Positions 34,903 through 56,529 are shown, counted from the stretch's first letter. The stretch is 64,000 nucleotides of DNA from Bacteroidia bacterium (GCA_021740845.1 JAIOYZ010000009.1:1-64000); one strand, 5' to 3'. Made by a program: numbers and translations. Notes: generated from the sequence alone by a model not told the origin.

Positions 34903-34980
34903 TAAGCCAATTTTTTACAAATAGAATCCACTTATAGAATTAAAGGAATGCGATACTGTTAACAGCAAATAGAAAATGAA

Positions 34981-35583
34981 TTATTTCCTAATTGTTGAAA
35001 ACCAACTAATGCCATAAACCAATCCATTTCCAGCATTGCCTTGGTATTGAAATTTATAATCTACAAAAGGAGCTAACCTTGATTTATTATTTTGAGAATA
35101 AATATAAAGTCGTACTCCCGCGCTTCCTCCATATATACTTTCTGTACGATCTTGGTAATCGTTTTTAATAAAATTTTGTTGCAATGGATTAATATGAGGT
35201 GAGATGTCAAAGGTTTCGTTTACTCTTATAGAATAAAAAATGCCTTCTGGCAAAACGCCAATTAAAATACCGAGAATGAATGCACCTCCTGGAATGCTAC
35301 TTTCGTCGGAAGCTTTAGCGCTTGAAAATGATTCATAGGTAGAAAAACCTAGTGAAGGGGAGGAGGGTATTTGAAAATAATTGGAGCCTGCCTGTATATT
35401 ATATTCAATTCCAAAGCCATTTTTAAATTCGTATTGAAACCCAAGTCCTACTATTGGTCTGCTTTTAAATTGTTCTAATTCTATTAAGCCAAAATTTGCT
35501 CCAAAATAAGCTCCTTGTGCTTTTGTATTTTGTGACAAAAAGAAAAACACCAAAAGTCCAAATAGGCATTTTATGGTTTTCAT
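34981..35583 (-). CDS. Exported probable outer-membrane beta-barrel protein (paralogue A)
   Basis: This 200-aa protein has a signal peptide ending TKAQ. Aromatic beta-strands follow: GAYFGANFGLIEL, PIVGLGFQYEFKNGFGIEYN, then a Ser-rich stretch, YGGSAGVRLYIYS and FVDYKFQYQGNAGNGLVYGI. This is the usual pattern of a small eight-strand outer-membrane barrel. It is clearly homologous along its whole length to the gene at 35799-36407, so the two are a tandem duplication. The function is unknown. Confidence 0.7.
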   Translation of the reverse strand: MKTIKCLFGLLVFFFLSQNTKAQGAYFGANFGLIELEQFKSRPIVGLGFQYEFKNGFGIEYNIQAGSNYFQIPSSPSLGFSTYESFSSAKASDESSIPGGAFILGILIGVLPEGIFYSIRVNETFDISPHINPLQQNFIKNDYQDRTESIYGGSAGVRLYIYSQNNKSRLAPFVDYKFQYQGNAGNGLVYGISWFSTIRK

Positions 35584-35703
35584 TGTTTTAAATATTGGTT
35601 CAAGAAGAAAAGGTTTTTTGGCATTCTAATTAAAACCTTTTCTAATTTTTCAGGTTTAGTTTTTGAACTAATAGTGTTATCACAAATCTGTTTTCAACTA
35701 GAA

Positions 35704-35715
35704 TTGGTTCAAACC
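35704..35715 (+). repeat. Iterated motif, 12-bp core
   Basis: TTGGTTCAAACC then AAAA, between the two paralogous barrel genes. Confidence 0.8.
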
Positions 35716-35798
35716 AAAATTAAGTAAAAAAGACCAAATTGATTATAAAGGATTGAAAGAGAGGCAAAAATTTAGATGTTTAATAAAAAAGAGATGAA

Positions 35799-36407
35799 TT
35801 ATTTCCCAAAATTTGAAAACCAAGTTAGCCCGTAAACCAAGCCGTTTCTGGCATTTTCTTCATATTGATATTTGTAATCAATAAATGGAGCAAACCTGGA
35901 TTTTTTATTGGGTGAAGAAATAAAAAGACGAATACCCGCGGTACCACCAAATAGGATTTCTGAATCGTCTTGGTAATTGTTTCTAATAAAGTTTAGCTGC
36001 ATGGGATTGATATGAGGGCAGATTCCAAAATGGTCGTTTAGTTTGATATTGTAGTAAAATCCTTCTGGAATTATTGCAATTAAAATCCCTACTAACAAAG
36101 CCCCACCTGGCCTGCTTTTTTCCTCATCTGATGTAGAACTTGAAATTGCGGCGCCTGTAATAAAGCCTAGAACGGGAGAAGATGGCATTTGAAAATACCT
36201 AGAACCAGCATGTAAGCTGTATTCAATTCCAAAACCATTTTTATATTCGTATTGAAATTCTAATCCAACGATAGGCCTTTGGTAAAACCCATCCAAATCC
36301 ATATAGCCAATGTTTGCACCAAAATATGCACCTTGAGCTTTTGTGAATTGAGGCAATAGAAAAAATAGTGAAAGTGCAACTAGGTAATTTGTAGTTCTCA
36401 TAGGCAT
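35799..36407 (-). CDS. Exported probable outer-membrane beta-barrel protein (paralogue B)
   Basis: This 202-aa protein starts at MPMRTTNYLV, or at MRTT two codons in. The signal peptide ends TKAQ, and the mature start GAYFGANIGYMDL is near-identical to paralogue A. Other shared blocks are PIVGLEFQYEYKNGFGIEYS, YFQMPSSPVLGF and FIDYKYQYEENARNGLVYGL. A variant iterated motif lies just upstream (36412-36427). It is probably a surface beta-barrel of unknown role. Confidence 0.7.
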   Translation of the reverse strand: MPMRTTNYLVALSLFFLLPQFTKAQGAYFGANIGYMDLDGFYQRPIVGLEFQYEYKNGFGIEYSLHAGSRYFQMPSSPVLGFITGAAISSSTSDEEKSRPGGALLVGILIAIIPEGFYYNIKLNDHFGICPHINPMQLNFIRNNYQDDSEILFGGTAGIRLFISSPNKKSRFAPFIDYKYQYEENARNGLVYGLTWFSNFGK

Positions 36408-37042: not shown

Positions 37043-37200
37043 CTATCTCCATAATTCTTCTTTTTCTTGACTATTGAAATAGAAGAGGTATGCATCAGAT
37101 TAAAAACTTCTAACCTGAATTGGAGCGCCGAATAAAGGCTGAGCATTTAACTCCTTGTCAATGGTAAATGCACTAAATTGTCGAGAAGTATAGGGAATAT
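37043..37200 (-). pseudogene. RHS core remnant
   Basis: In one frame the minus strand reads LNAQPLFGAPIQVRSF, stop, SDAYLFYFNSQEKEELWR, stop. This matches the RHS pattern (YPFG..I.GRSF then S..YRFGFN.QEK), interrupted by a stop at the expected junction. A related stretch (SDAGAYLFSINCKEK) lies in the RHS fragment at 39.7-40.1 kb. It is too decayed to be functional. Confidence 0.55.
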
Positions 37201-37212
37201 ATTTTGTCAAAC

Positions 37213-37626
37213 TTATATTTTGTAATTTTTTAAGAATTGAGCTGGGTTAACTATTGGCAAATTTCTAAATGGGTGCATAACCAATAAATCTTTGTCCCCA
37301 CTTATTAAGCAATCAGCCCTTGAGTTCCATGCAAGTGAAAGAAACTTGTCGTCTTTAGGGTCGCGACATGCTATTATCTCTTCATGAATTGGGATAACCA
37401 TGCAGCGAATTTCTAATTCATTTATTGCTTTTATCCTATTTTGTAGGGAAATGTATCGGTCAAATTTTGGGTGCGTAAATTTCTCCGCAAATTCACTTAA
37501 CGTTTCCTTCGATTGAACCAAAGTACCCCAATCCAAAACATATTCATATGCTCTTCTTGGATTAGATACTTTAATAAGATGTGCACTTATTAAAGTATTG
37601 GTGTCAATTACAAAAAGCTTAATCAT
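37213..37626 (-). CDS. PIN-domain toxin (VapC-like)
   Basis: This 137-aa protein has the PIN acidic residues in order: Asp8 in FVIDTNTLIS, Asp in CRDPKDDKFLSLA, and Asp in CLISGDKDLL. It matches the PIN-family group often annotated as putative toxin-antitoxin toxin component. Such proteins are Mg-dependent RNases. It overlaps the end of the upstream gene by 8 bp, as expected for a translationally coupled TA pair. A decayed RHS fragment follows directly. Confidence 0.85.
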   Translation of the reverse strand: MIKLFVIDTNTLISAHLIKVSNPRRAYEYVLDWGTLVQSKETLSEFAEKFTHPKFDRYISLQNRIKAINELEIRCMVIPIHEEIIACRDPKDDKFLSLAWNSRADCLISGDKDLLVMHPFRNLPIVNPAQFLKNYKI

Positions 37627-37849
37627 CCGTTTCCAACAAATCTTTAAGCTTGCCTTCAGTTATTCCATTCCTTTGGGCTTCATCACTCATTTGGTCAAGT
37701 AATATCTTATATTCAGCAGTATCTTTTATTAGGAAAACTTTTTTAAGGTAGGTGTTAATTGCACTGATGATTCGTTCTTTTTTGTCTGACGATTCATTTA
37801 AAAAGGCATTTGCTACCTGATAATCAACTTCAATTACAATCCTGCTCAT
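37619..37849 (-). CDS. Antitoxin partner of the PIN toxin
   Basis: A protein of about 76 aa is read from ATG 37849 (MSRIVIEVDYQVANAFLNES); a 36-codon upstream extension is AT-rich and implausible. It starts with a short beta-strand (SRIVIEVDY) and a helical stretch like ribbon-helix-helix antitoxins, then an acidic C-terminus (LKDLLETDD) that would wrap the toxin. It overlaps the PIN gene by 8 bp. The assignment rests mostly on position and size. Confidence 0.7.
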   Translation of the reverse strand: MSRIVIEVDYQVANAFLNESSDKKERIISAINTYLKKVFLIKDTAEYKILLDQMSDEAQRNGITEGKLKDLLETDD

Positions 37850-38082
37850 ATCTATAAGGTTTATACCCAAATTTAATAGATTTAAATGAATTTTAAAAAT
37901 AGGCTTTAATTTTTTTAGGACTTTAATAAATATGCAAATTATATAGTAGTTAATCAAATCTCGCCAAATGTAAAATCCATCTTTTCTCCAATATTTTTTA
38001 GGCCAGTTTGTTACAATTCAATTTATATTAAAAACGGTTATAGACAATTAGAAATTCTTTCGCCAAGAAAAATTTGAAAAAC

Positions 38083-38238
38083 ATGAAGCCAACTGAAAAA
38101 CAATTTGATGCAGTAAATTTCATTTGTTAACAACGAGACTAATTGAGCGAAAAACACTCTAAAATGTCCAAATCTGAAATTTCAGAATACTTTAAAAATA
38201 TCAAAACAGAAATAGCTGCGAGACCATGCGCAAAATAG
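38083..38238 (+). pseudogene. Broken small antitoxin-like gene
   Basis: One frame reads MKPTEKQFDAVNFIC, stop (38128), QRD, stop (38140), then LSEKHSKMSKSEISEYFKNI and KTEIAARPCAK. The pattern MKxxxxFDAVxFMR-x-QRDxLSxKLxKMxxEEIxxYF is common for short antitoxin-like proteins in TA loci (from memory). The frame is otherwise continuous, so two nonsense mutations killed it. Its end abuts repeat A. Confidence 0.6.
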
Positions 38239-38292
38239 TTTGTTTCCAAAAGGTAATCTTGCCATTTTAGAGGTGTTTTTATGTTTATAGAT

Positions 38293-38618
38293 TTTAGTGC
38301 ATTTATTTGAAAATGCACCAAAATGGCTGTAGTACCTGTTATGTATGCCATCGCAAAGGTTTTGCAATAATAAAACAATTGGATTATTACCTCCTCGTAT
38401 TGATAAAGCAAAATAGGTAATAATATCATTAATGAAGGAAGATTTTAACCTTTGGCAAATATTTAGAACATGTACATCATGTCTTTTTTGGTTCAAACCG
38501 AAATTTGGTTTGGATGGTTGTGGAATGGTTTATTTAAATTAAAACCTGGCTGTAATCTTTTTCCGAGTGCTTAAGGTCCTTTCATAGTCGGACGTAGACA
38601 CAGTCTATGCCCAACGGG
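38293..38618. repeat. Island repeat, copy A
   Basis: This ~325-bp element begins TTTAGTGCATTTATTTGAAA, with a GTGCATTT/AAATGCAC hairpin. It contains GATAAAGCAAAATAGGTAAT and a full iterated motif (38487-38502). It ends in a GACGTAGACACAGTCTATGC palindrome and CCCAACGGG. It is homologous to B and C in the same orientation. Open frames inside it (38139-38496) are not credible genes. Confidence 0.85.
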
Positions 38619-38641
38619 TACAACACCGAACACAACCTACA

Positions 38642-39454
38642 TTACTTAAAAATAAACCTATGCAACCCACCCCAATTCCAAATTGGTATTCCCTTTTGAG
38701 CAGGTGCAAGTTGATATTTCATTGCCCCAACATGTTCAAAACTTTCCATGCTATTTAGGTCTGCCAAAAGACCTTCGAAAGACAAACTATTGTGCAACTT
38801 AATTTCTGTTTTGGGGAGAGCTATCACTTCCCCTAGTCCGCCAGACATAGGGAATCCCATATACATTAATCGACCATCGTAAAATTTTACATTTCTGGTC
38901 ATTACTAAATTGCTATCAAGGAACATAATACTACCAATACCTCTAGCATCAGAAAATAGCGGATAGGAATCATATTCATGTCGATTAATAAAATACAAAT
39001 TCCCTTTGAAAGTAAAAATAATTGCTGAAAGTCCTCGGCTATACTTTGAGGTTACACTCATAATATATTCATTATCAAAAAGCTGTGCAACTCTGAATTC
39101 ATAAACCGATTTACCATTTTGATTATAAACAACTCTACAGATTTTTTTATCCTTATAGTATAAATCAAAGTCTACATCATCGTTATCTTCACTCCCATCT
39201 GATTCCATACTGATAAAACTAAACGAAGAAACTTTTTCATGCTTATTGGAACTAACTGGAGTCTTGATAACAGACTGAGCTTTAGACAAAATCTCAGTAA
39301 ACCAAAATCTTTGACTGGAATCATTTCTTTCATCTGATGCCTTGAATGTTTGACCATGGTCTTCGTTGGCTTTGACTCTTTTTTGCTCCACGTCCTTACA
39401 GGAATTTAGACCTAAAATTACCGAAAGGATAAAAATGTTCTTAACTAACTTCAT
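38642..39454 (-). CDS. Hypothetical lipoprotein next to an RHS fragment
   Basis: This 270-aa protein has a lipoprotein signal (MKLVKNIFILSVILGL then NSC). The mature part starts acidic and polar, followed by beta-rich sequence (FDLYYKDKKICRVVYNQNGK, SAIIFTFKGNLYFINRHEYD, GIGSIMFLDSNLVMTRNVKF). There is no recognised domain. It lies downstream of the RHS remnant on the same strand and ends 24 bp from repeat A. It could be an immunity-type or cargo gene of the cassette, but nothing in its sequence proves that. Confidence 0.6.
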   Translation of the reverse strand: MKLVKNIFILSVILGLNSCKDVEQKRVKANEDHGQTFKASDERNDSSQRFWFTEILSKAQSVIKTPVSSNKHEKVSSFSFISMESDGSEDNDDVDFDLYYKDKKICRVVYNQNGKSVYEFRVAQLFDNEYIMSVTSKYSRGLSAIIFTFKGNLYFINRHEYDSYPLFSDARGIGSIMFLDSNLVMTRNVKFYDGRLMYMGFPMSGGLGEVIALPKTEIKLHNSLSFEGLLADLNSMESFEHVGAMKYQLAPAQKGIPIWNWGGLHRFIFK

Positions 39455-39524
39455 AATGGCACGTATTTAAATATTTTAAGGCTTTGGATTAACATTGGGT
39501 TAATTAGGATTTTTTCCAGTTTCA

Positions 39525-40128
39525 CTAAATCAATCTGCATTTCTGGTTTGAGCTTCTAGACATATCTATTGAACCTCCCTCACTATATGTTGCACCATGT
39601 ATCGAACAAATAAATTATTGATCTTTAGTCCGTCTGTTCCATAGGTTTTTTGTAACCATGAAGTAGCCTAACCTAAACTAGATACTATTAAAAATCCCAA
39701 CCTAGTGCTATTTCTTTCTGTCTTTCTAAATTAAAATCAGCAGAACTATTATCAAGTAATATAATCATAACGTATCCTGTTCGATTATAATTCTGTGCTA
39801 TTAGATCACCTGGACACTCACCTTCAATATCAATTAACCTTACGGGATTATTTGCAGCATAAATATAAGGTGCCCAAAATGAAAAATCATTTGTTCTTGG
39901 ATCTAAAGATAAAAATCTCCCCAACCTCGCATCATAAACCCTCGCACCAAAATCCAAATCATTTCCAGCGCCGTTAATCTCGTTAATTTTCTCCTTGCAA
40001 TTGATGGAGAAGAGGTATGCACCTGCATCGGATTTAAGGTGCGATTTTTTGCCCTTAGTGCATTTATTTAAGAAAGCACCAAAATGGCTGTAAGGCTTGT
40101 TATGTATGCTACTTCGAAGGTTTTGCAT
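39525..40128 (-). pseudogene. RHS-core fragment with decayed C-terminal domain
   Basis: The intact frame (39688-40128) carries the RHS-associated core: KEKINEINGAGNDLDFGARV, YDARLGRFLSLDPRT, YIYAANNPVRLIDIEG. A variable tail ends IALGWDF. The protein-like sequence then continues in other frames (ATSWLQKTYGTDGLKINNLF, then IHGATYSEGGSIDMSRSSNQ) to a stop at 39525. This indicates at least one nonsense and one frameshift mutation. The 5' side is cut by repeat B, so the first ~30 residues (MQNLRSSIHNKPYSHFGAFL) come from the repeat and not from an RHS protein. A full RHS would be far longer. Confidence 0.75.
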
Positions 40129-40384
40129 TAATAAAACAATTGAATTATTACCTCATCGTATTGATAAAGCAAAATAGGTAATAAAATTGAACATTAAAGA
40201 AGGAAGATTTTGAACATTGGCAAATATTTATAACAGGTACTTCAGGTCTTTCTTGGTTCAAACTGATATTTGGTTTGGTGATTGTGGAAAGGTTAATTTA
40301 AATTAGAGGCTGCTTTGTAATCTTCATAGTGGAGCTTAAGCTCCAAAAATAGTCGGACGTAGACACAGTCTACGCCCAACGGGG
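40055..40384. repeat. Island repeat, copy B
   Basis: This ~330-bp element is homologous to copy A over its full length. It starts TTAGTGCATTTATTTAAGAA and ends TAGACACAGTCTACGCCCAA then CGGGG. It carries a variant iterated motif (CTTGGTTCAAACTGA at 40253) and a GGAGCTTAAGCTCC palindrome near 40332. It truncates the 5' side of the RHS fragment. Confidence 0.85.
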
Positions 40385-40518
40385 TTTATTAGCACCAATT
40401 TTATTTATGCTATTTCAAGGCCAATTCACAATTTTTTTATTTCCAGTTTGAATACCTATTTAATCTACAAAACAAGAGGGATTAGCAAAATAACCTAAAA
40501 AATTTATATATTCGTTTT

Positions 40519-40713
40519 ATGGTAATTGAGCGAAATGAAAACGAAATTATTATTCGTATTAATTCAGGCATTTCTGCAAAAAGGCTTGAACAATTAGTTG
40601 ACTATCTTCGTTACAGAGAAATTGCTGATAAATCTAAAGCGAAAAAGGCCGATCTCGATAAACTAATATCTTCAGTTAAGAAGAAAAGACATCTTTCGGC
40701 AATATCAAAATAG
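40519..40713 (+). CDS. Small antitoxin partner of a PIN toxin
   Basis: This 64-aa protein has a beta-strand start (MVIERNENEIIIRINSGISA) followed by helices rich in Lys and Arg (KRLEQLVDYLRYREIADKSK, SVKKKRHL). It lies 4 bp upstream of the PIN gene. Size, charge and position fit an antitoxin of the kind found with VapC-like toxins in Bacteroidota. The sequence alone does not identify the DNA-binding fold. Confidence 0.7.
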   Translation: MVIERNENEIIIRINSGISAKRLEQLVDYLRYREIADKSKAKKADLDKLISSVKKKRHLSAISK

Positions 40714-40717
40714 TGAA

Positions 40718-41152
40718 TTGAAAGTTGTAGTTGATACAAATATTGTTTTTAGTGCATTGCTAAATATTGATAGTAGAATTGCTCGTGTTTTGTTATACAG
40801 TGAAAAGGAGTTGCAATTTTATTCATGTGATTTCTTGAAATTTGAAATAGCGAAACACAAGCAGAAAATTTTGAGACTTACAAATTATTCCGAATCTCAA
40901 TTTTCTGAAATTGAGTTTTTGGTGACAAAAAACATTCATTTCCAAAACCACAATCTTATTAACCCTAAGATATTAGCAAAAGCAGAGGATATGCTAAGGA
41001 CTGTTGATATAGATGACGCTCCATTTTTAGCCTTAGCGCAAAGTTTAAAAGCAAAATTATGGACTGGCGACAAAAAGCTTTCCAATGGATTAATAAAACA
41101 AGGGTATTCAAATATTATTAGTACAGAAGAAATTGCTGGTGTTATATTTTAA
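40718..41152 (+). CDS. PIN-domain toxin (VapC-like), TTG start
   Basis: This 144-aa protein has PIN acidic residues at Asp6 (KVVVDTNIVFSALL), in the TVDIDDAPFLALA block and in LWTGDKKL. The start is TTG at 40718, 4 bp after the antitoxin stop, since no ATG lies before the first catalytic Asp. It is a likely Mg-dependent RNase. It differs from the PIN gene at 37213 and sits between island repeats B and C. Confidence 0.85.
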   Translation: MKVVVDTNIVFSALLNIDSRIARVLLYSEKELQFYSCDFLKFEIAKHKQKILRLTNYSESQFSEIEFLVTKNIHFQNHNLINPKILAKAEDMLRTVDIDDAPFLALAQSLKAKLWTGDKKLSNGLIKQGYSNIISTEEIAGVIF

Positions 41153-41234
41153 GATTGAGAAATTTAGAATTAATAAATCCTCCCTTATTTCTTATTTCAA
41201 GTTTTAAAAAAAGTAGAACTTGTTGTCTTGATTA

Positions 41235-41493
41235 TGCATTAAAAAAACAATTGAATTATTACCTCATCGTATTGATAAAGCAAAATAGGCAATAATATCA
41301 TAAAAGAAGGAAGATTTTAACCTTTGGCAAATAGTTATAACATGTACATCAGGTCTCTTTTGGTTCAAACCGAAATTTGATTTTGGATGGTTGTGGAATG
41401 GCTTATTTAAATTAAAATCTGGCTTGTAATCTTTATCCTGGAGATTAAACTCCAAAAATAGTCGGACGTAGACATAGTCTAAGCCCAGCGGGG
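41235..41493. repeat. Island repeat, copy C (5'-shortened)
   Basis: This ~260-bp element is homologous to the right part of A and B, from TGCATTAAAAAAACAATTGA to the GACGTAGACATAGTCTAAGC palindrome and CCCAGCGGGG. It contains a full iterated motif (41359-41374). The GTGC hairpin end is missing. The 63-codon frame inside (41264-41455) is not a gene. Confidence 0.85.
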
Positions 41494-41503
41494 AAGCCTT
41501 TAA

Positions 41504-41746
41504 TTAAACGACCAATTCTTTTGATTCCAAGAACAAGGTTTCTGGGGCGATATCCAATTCATTTGACCATTGAACAGTTCCCATAAAAACGTGGGCAGTT
41601 TTAAAGAGTTGAATATCTTTCAATTCAACAAAATCGCCCTTGTCGAGATAAGGCTTAACATCGAAAACTTTGTGAGACCCATCCTCAAAGACACAGCTTA
41701 AAGTATAGTCAATATTGCTAATCACCTGTCTTAATTTTGGTAACAT
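41504..41746 (-). CDS. DUF2442 family protein
   Basis: This 80-aa protein has the family layout: YTLSCVFEDGSHKVFDVKPY, then LKDIQLFKTAHVFMGTVQW and the final IAPETLFLESKEL. DUF2442 proteins are short and cytoplasmic and often sit beside toxin-antitoxin-type genes. No partner (such as a DUF4160 gene) is present here. It ends 11 bp from repeat C, like the other island genes. The role is unknown, possibly an orphan antitoxin-like protein. Confidence 0.85.
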   Translation of the reverse strand: MLPKLRQVISNIDYTLSCVFEDGSHKVFDVKPYLDKGDFVELKDIQLFKTAHVFMGTVQWSNELDIAPETLFLESKELVV

Positions 41747-55440: not shown

Positions 55441-56529
55441 TTAAGGAATAGCAATGGTGCAACTCACCATTTTATGGTCGCTAAAATTTAATGTATTGGT
55501 ACGGTAATGGTAACTGTTCCAAGAAGGATCGTGTAAGATATAATCAATTCTAAAAGAAGGCATTTTGCCAATATATGTTCTGCTCATGCCTTTTCCAGAC
55601 TCTTTAAAAGAATCCTTCATGTCGCCACGAATGGTATGGTAAGAATAACTCGTTGGAGAGTCGTTAAAATCCCCACATAATACAACCTTATATGGGCTAT
55701 CCAAAAGGCGTTCTCTTATCTTATTTGCTTGCTTAGCTCTATATTGAAAAGCGTATTTTAACTTAGCTATAATCTTCCTAATTTTATAGGTATCAGTTGT
55801 TTCATCTCCATCTTTTAATTCTTGAATAGTTCTGTAATCGTCTTTGTCGAAAACAATTGATTTAAGATGGGTATTTACTATTCTGATAGTATCCCCAGCA
55901 AAAAGTATATCTGCAAAAACGGTGAGGTTACTATTCTGATTTTCTAGTTCTAAAAAGCCTTTGTTTACAATTGGGTATCGAGAAAATATACAAACCCCAT
56001 AGCCCGTTGGAAAGGTATTGCTCAAAGCATCTGCATTTACATTGGAGTAATTGTGGTATTGAGCAAAGAATTTTTTAAACATGGGCTTTTCATAGTTTCC
56101 TCCCAAATTGGCAAATTCCTGCAAGCAGATTACATCAGGTGCAAGCGTGTCGAGCATATTAAAAAAGAAAGAAGAATCGCCTCCACTATAATCGTAAGCG
56201 CCCATATAATGGGTGTTAAAGGTAACTACATTTAATAAATTAGCTTTGTTGTTTTCGGGTATTTCTACTTGGTTAATTTGAATAAAAGCAGGAATATTCC
56301 AAATGGATAAAAGAAATCCTCCTAAGGAAACAAAACTCCATCTGCTTTTTTGGATCAGCCAGAATAATAAAACTAAAATATTGGCTAAAGCTATAAATGG
56401 GAATGAAAGCCCAAAAAATGCCAAAGGCCAAAATTCACCAGGGCTAAAAAATGGTGAAAGGGTGGCTAAGGCCAAAGCCAATGCCAACAGAATACCAACG
56501 GGAATAAATATGCCTCTTATTATTTTCAA
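55441..56529 (-). CDS. Endonuclease/exonuclease/phosphatase-family protein, membrane-anchored
   Basis: This 362-aa protein has three N-terminal membrane helices (GILLALALALATLSPFF, AFFGLSFPFIALANILVLLF, FVSLGGFLLSIWNIPAF). An EEP domain follows: VVTFNTHYMGAYDYSGGDSS, ICLQEFANLGG (catalytic Glu), VLCGDFNDSPTSYSY, and FSDHKMVSCTI (Asp-His). It lacks a signal peptide but should be exported. The family cleaves phosphodiesters of nucleic acids or phospholipids. Its stop directly abuts that of the outer-membrane gene (zero-gap convergence), and the rhomboid gene lies just upstream. Confidence 0.88.
   Translation of the reverse strand: MKIIRGIFIPVGILLALALALATLSPFFSPGEFWPLAFFGLSFPFIALANILVLLFWLIQKSRWSFVSLGGFLLSIWNIPAFIQINQVEIPENNKANLLNVVTFNTHYMGAYDYSGGDSSFFFNMLDTLAPDVICLQEFANLGGNYEKPMFKKFFAQYHNYSNVNADALSNTFPTGYGVCIFSRYPIVNKGFLELENQNSNLTVFADILFAGDTIRIVNTHLKSIVFDKDDYRTIQELKDGDETTDTYKIRKIIAKLKYAFQYRAKQANKIRERLLDSPYKVVLCGDFNDSPTSYSYHTIRGDMKDSFKESGKGMSRTYIGKMPSFRIDYILHDPSWNSYHYRTNTLNFSDHKMVSCTIAIP

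Follow-up and report, generated by a model that had tools for sequence, protein, structure and literature searches.

Islands of orphan Rhs tips and toxin-antitoxin genes punctuated by REP-ended spacers in a Bacteroidia bacterium

Several islands in the genome of a Bacteroidia bacterium share all or part of a non-coding repeat that lies between orphan Rhs fragments, putative lipoprotein or immunity genes and toxin-antitoxin (TA) pairs, and that ends in a REP-like double hairpin. We consider it probable that these islands are arrays in decay, built of TA modules and orphan Rhs tips and reshuffled by homologous recombination between the dispersed REP-ended spacers. The starting point was a window of 64,000 nucleotides on contig C41 of this genome (G000; 4.09 Mb, 66 contigs), for which a first-pass annotation had proposed an island of gene cassettes.

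Repeats of the window, their relatives and their modules

The island of the window contains three repeats, A (38294..38620), B (40055..40386) and C (41232..41495), all on the plus strand. As had been claimed, they are direct repeats in the same orientation, 84-88% alike: identity is 83.6% over 330 bp for A and B, 88.1% over 261 bp for A and C, and 85.0% over 266 bp for B and C. When repeat C was compared with 200 dinucleotide-shuffled versions of the region, the best score was 33.7 bits, far below the observed 324 and 297 bits. Repeat B is full length, and its homology extends to the left up to position 39917, into an Rhs-core fragment. No Rhs core is attached to repeat A, and in repeat C the outermost 70 bp on the left, which carry a GTGC hairpin, are missing. 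The right-end pattern GGACGTAGAC-nnn-GTCTAC-GCCCA(A/G)CGGGG is present in all three copies, the chance expectation being 0. The right end of A is located about 22 bp from the stop of a putative lipoprotein gene (38642), that of C about 10 bp from the stop of a DUF2442 gene (41504), and that of B about 134 bp from the next start; the short distances noted earlier for A and C were thus confirmed. Of the left GTGC hairpin described for A and B, the inverted repeat was found in both, but in B it folds no better than shuffled sequences. A scan of the window against Rfam gave zero matches. At the left edge of the island, positions 37061-37094 show 76% identity over 34 nt to positions 39988-40021; this weak remnant of an Rhs junction is perhaps a fourth, decayed repeat.

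Related copies are present in three further islands of the same genome, on contigs C61 (71287, 76724 and a tandem piece at 71574), C19 (2947, 6455, 8477) and C42 (4313 and 6569, on the other strand); they are designated below by contig and letter. Among 97 relatives searched, left modules of the repeat were found in G012 (two copies) and G017, and right-end hairpins in G003 and G002, other matches being few, short and weak. With related copies in C19, C61 and C42 and partial copies in four congeners, all of them well outside the locus, A, B and C are not a simple local duplication, the explanation which the first-pass annotation had set against its own. The repeat had no match in plasmid and phage records, nor did its left-module pattern in viral contigs, and a search of public genomes with the exact REP pattern gave matches only in the two congeners already found, G003 and G002.

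Each repeat is a mosaic of two separable modules, which in A comprise positions 38294-38484 (left) and 38485-38620 (right). The left module (40055-40186 in B) is the part common to G012 and G017, and in B, C61a, C19a, G012a and G017 an Rhs core is fused to it. Left modules are about 77-90% identical to each other. A protein-coding left module was rejected, since the pairwise differences are equally distributed over the codon positions (148/140/150), which indicates that the module does not evolve as a protein. The right module extends over about 137 bp from a 15-bp quasi-palindrome, TTGGTTCAAACCGAA, to the double hairpin. Copies consisting of the right module only (C61b, the third C61 piece, C42a, C42b) start at most about 5 bp from TTGGTTCAAACCGAA. 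The right boundary is sharp after CGGGG in most copies; the left boundaries differ between copies.

The 15-bp motif opens the right module of A at 38488..38502 and is found in C at 41360..41374, both on the plus strand. It has 536 exact copies in the genome compared to 0 for the reversed control, and 3 to 206 copies in other members of the genus. In the window, it occurs at 30 places with at most one mismatch (e.g., 3566, 4894, 7539, 49551), 20 of which are intergenic, although about 87% of the window is coding; the flanks of these copies are not conserved. The motif might act as an uptake-type sequence or as a binding site.

Cargo genes and Rhs fragments of the islands

The gene order in the window is PIN_3 pair, A, lipoprotein gene and Rhs fragment, B, PIN_2 pair, C, DUF2442 gene. 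Left of A, a PIN_3 toxin-like gene (37213..37626, minus strand; PF13470, 53.9 bits) is accompanied by its putative antitoxin partner of 78 aa (37619..37855, minus strand), which has no family assignment. Between A and B, a putative lipoprotein of 270 aa without a family (38642..39454, minus strand) fits an immunity or accessory gene by its position. It is followed by the orphan Rhs-core fragment (39688..40128, minus strand; TIGR03696 [Rhs_assc_core], 41 bits), whose 5′ end lies inside B and of which a short C-terminal part is left. The slot between B and C contains a putative antitoxin gene (40519..40713, plus strand; 64 aa, no family) and a PIN_2 toxin-like gene (40718..41152, plus strand; PF10130, 106 bits). 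The order of cargo proposed initially therefore holds for the Rhs/lipoprotein unit and the PIN pair, but not for the DUF2442 gene (41504..41746, minus strand; PF10387, 37.3 bits), which lies outside C rather than between repeats. Beside the island, in the region 34967-36084, two tandem paralogs of about 200 aa each with signal-peptide-like starts were noticed (34981-35583 and 35799-36407).

Different cargo in slots between the same repeat, as anticipated for cassettes, was seen in four islands of the genome and in relatives. In C19, the slot between copies a and b holds genes for an SLFN_AlbA protein, an orphan antitoxin-like protein and a 219-aa protein; copy b is followed by a gene for a 232-aa protein and a PIN pair, then by copy c and a ParE-like pair. 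In C42, the spacer lies between consecutive genes. The cargo in G012 is a ParDE-like pair, recognized by gene order, size and the match to C19 and having no family match, and that in G017 is an Rhs orphan followed by hicA. C19 and G012 have a block of 403 bp with 89% identity in common, which comprises an antitoxin gene and its upstream DNA and has different neighbors: it ends at the start of the toxin gene in G012, and the SLFN_AlbA gene is next in C19. Since the prfC proteins of these genomes are 92% identical, the block may be of vertical or horizontal origin. The accumulation of TA genes in these islands may simply reflect their tolerance of insertions. In the C42 island (L056 2028-9995), long intergenic repeats of a separate family (up to 523 bp, 80%) were also seen; they separate an Rhs gene, the gene for an 860-aa secreted-looking protein and a lipoprotein-like gene.

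Flanking genes were used to locate the corresponding sites in relatives. In G003, G012 and G002, prfC is close to thioredoxin/rhodanese genes, and this site contains neither a gene of the window island nor the repeat. Relatives thus keep prfC and the thioredoxin/rhodanese genes without the island, which disposes of identical flanks and cargo in all relatives, the other outcome named against the cassette proposal. For the flanking MscS gene, no ortholog was found in the genus at the limit used. The anchor tried for C19, NadB, has orthologs in 7 of 18 congeners, with 42-48% identity.

Rhs cores are associated with the repeats. Of the five Rhs-core matches in the genome, four (C61:76086, C41:39820, C42:2686, C61:71057) are no more than about 2 kb away from a repeat, and the fifth (C41:86240) has no repeat module except the 15-mer. 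All three matches above the family cut-off are at islands, as is one of the two weaker ones. In addition, a degenerate Rhs core adjoins C19a. Rhs orphans without the N-terminal part and with differing C-termini occur in the window, in C61, in C42 and in G017, where the orphan has the same leader and an open frame. Several of the Rhs fragments contain frameshifts or stops, in agreement with the decay between repeats described in the first-pass annotation. The longest Rhs-core frame of the genome has 478 aa, and no full-length Rhs gene was found in the 66-contig assembly, where one could be unassembled; for this reason, we do not classify the region as a canonical Rhs locus.

The right-end hairpin and its RAYT gene

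The REP-like double hairpins at the right ends are located on the minus strand at 38564..38620 in A (67.6 bits with model R1), at 40329..40386 in B (two full stems, -14.3 kcal/mol, z -4.7) and at 41438..41495 in C (found by alignment and covariance model). The covariance model identified 15 hairpins in the own genome and three each in G003 and G002. Ten of the 15 are in Rhs/TA islands, four at or, by inference, at the locus of a gene for a REP-associated tyrosine transposase (RAYT), and one elsewhere. Over 18 hairpins, 84% of the stem cells pair and 17 cells are changed on both sides, values of which neither was reached in 500 shuffles; slid controls were 29-41% paired, and each of them had a lower covariation score. 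A terminator role was considered and rejected: only the hairpin of B was terminator-like in a scan, and the T run is missing from A and from the copies in C19, so what is conserved is not termination.

The RAYT (HuH/Y1) of G003 (NCBIfam NF047646, REP_Tyr_transpos; 99.3 bits, cut-off 80) is encoded at 55613-56176 between two inverted hairpins, at 56185-56241 on the minus and at 55540-55597 on the plus strand. The RAYT of the own genome, 70% identical to that of G003 over 114 aa, is located at the end of contig C54 and cut by it. As in G003, it follows comM; three tandem hairpins lie upstream, and the downstream side is lost at the contig end. A hairpin stands at the start of contig C61, together with genes syntenic to those following the G003 RAYT, which is why C54 and C61 are probably neighbors. 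The inner stem carries GTAG in the upstream copies flanking RAYT and GGAG in most others. A Pfam model revealed other RAYT genes in the genus, and this hairpin is absent from their flanks. Since the hairpin flanks the G003 RAYT, precedes the own RAYT and has compensated stems, the right end of the repeat is a REP element belonging to a low-copy family linked to a Bacteroidota RAYT; because of the low copy number, it was not filed as a canonical REP family. At the comM locus of G002, a truncated RAYT start together with an ORF6N gene is enclosed by two inverted hairpins, and an ORF6N fragment of G003 lies outside the inverted hairpins (L060 3246-4083, L059 8391-10462). In addition, a single hairpin was seen in G002:C257 (L120 1480-3053) upstream of a gene pair which by eye resembles hipB-hipA.

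Among known REP/RAYT (TnpAREP) systems, the Bacteroidetes subclass 2.6 has atypical hairpins and structures, and the canonical guide, GT[AG]G at the foot of the hairpin, is reportedly missing (PMC6006769, PMC2817692). The G003 RAYT contains the motifs NHIH and YIHNNP, which fit this subclass; as a WQ motif was not recognized, the assignment is a suggestion. The system described here is alike in that inverted hairpins flank the RAYT gene and also occur elsewhere, and in that the stems covary. It differs in having about 15 copies instead of the usual more than 100 per genome (PMC6006769, PMC2817692), in the double hairpin with its GGAG or GTAG at the inner stem, and in that most copies end a larger repeat in toxin islands.

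Recombination between spacers and competing explanations

Some copies of the repeat are chimeric. A mosaic test was performed with B, C19a, C19b and C61a, the four copies extending into the Rhs junction. All 14 informative sites of the left part, which fall into 6 clusters, group B with C19b and C61a with C19a, whereas all 12 of the right part pair B with C61a and C19a with C19b. The switch between the two groupings falls between columns 237 and 305, near the start of the right module, and the permutation test with adjacent sites collapsed gave p = 0.004. Recombination or gene conversion involving copies of different contigs would be expected to leave this pattern and is suggested by it. From the mosaics and the differing cargo we infer that the chimeras arose by homologous recombination, which would also move the cargo. 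The region would accordingly be an accessory island in partial decay, made up of orphan Rhs tips, TA pairs and putative lipoprotein/immunity genes, in which the repeats would serve as spacers separating the cassettes. Read on the minus strand, the spacer would consist of the end of the preceding gene, the REP-type double hairpin, a linker with the 15-bp palindrome and the non-coding leader, usually followed by an Rhs core. Copies in no fewer than four islands have all or part of the spacer in common, so that the intervening genes could be exchanged, gained and lost when these copies undergo homologous recombination or gene conversion. The right-end hairpins were probably seeded and dispersed by RAYT.

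The cassette exchange and decay envisaged in the first-pass annotation thus agree with the varied cargo, the shared block, the chimeric copies and the frameshifts and stops, but a site-specific recombinase recognizing the ends is not supported. A tyrosine recombinase (PF00589) is encoded on none of the repeat-bearing contigs C41, C19, C61 and C42, all nine matches in the genome being on other contigs, and the ends are linked to RAYT instead. This makes an integron-like system, in which a recombinase would move genes between the repeats as its recombination sites, highly improbable, despite the same orientation of the repeats, the one to two genes per slot, the TA cargo as in chromosomal integrons and the mostly sharp right boundary. 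Cassette ends in integrons have the attC architecture RYYYAAC...GTTRRRY, and the core-like ends found here, GTCGGAC...GCCCAAC, are in the opposite order; moreover, the variable left boundaries and the presence of cargo on both strands do not fit. Repeated copying of one Rhs/immunity unit with its intergenic region, followed by divergence or loss of the coding parts without any exchange, would account for the uniform orientation within an island and for the Rhs core on most left modules. It leaves unrelated genes in the slots, chimeras across contigs and an antitoxin block common to two species with different neighbors unaccounted for, and we regard it as unlikely.

Two further possibilities give RAYT a larger part. 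The right module of about 137 bp, or the whole repeat, might be a non-autonomous element inserted behind genes by the RAYT of the genome, with the cargo pattern as a by-product. The double hairpins next to both RAYT genes, the right modules without a left one in C61b and C42 and the mostly sharp right boundary are in line with this, but there are only 15 copies, ten of them in Rhs/TA islands, and at its other end the right module has no REP hairpin. No RAYT is known to mobilize gene cassettes. RAYTs have been described as movers of REPs/BIMEs rather than of 330-bp units (PMC6006769), and overall we judge RAYT-driven spread somewhat unlikely. It seems very doubtful that the repeats are a dedicated exchange module, in which the RAYT-linked hairpin and the 15-bp palindrome bound a 137-bp segment, single-strand cleavage by RAYT triggers recombination, and a domesticated REP transposase drives Rhs/TA turnover.

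Among known systems, the closest to reshuffling by homologous recombination between spacers are the Rhs loci of Enterobacteria with dissociated C-terminal tips (Jackson et al., 2009; PMC2935791), which have been explained by homologous recombination between repeats of the core and whose fragments were long regarded as relics. Both have arrays of partial Rhs cores that differ in their tips. In the islands described here, however, the shared block is mostly non-coding (leader and REP) rather than Rhs core, no full-length Rhs gene was found, and TA pairs occupy the same slots. The type VI effector-immunity arrays of Vibrio cholerae (PMC5361080) and the tandem esaG arrays of Staphylococcus (PMC9484751) likewise gain toxin/immunity modules stepwise and recombine between their conserved blocks, but here the role of such a block falls to an intergenic repeat that is scattered over several islands. 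No secretion genes were seen adjoining the window island.

Rhs tip arrays are known in Proteobacteria, with homology provided by the coding core; here, it is a non-coding REP-ended spacer that extends across islands. If recombination between the spacers does take place, it would tie REP elements, whose benefit for the host is unclear, to the turnover of toxin and immunity genes, and it would provide a handle for finding such islands in other Bacteroidota.
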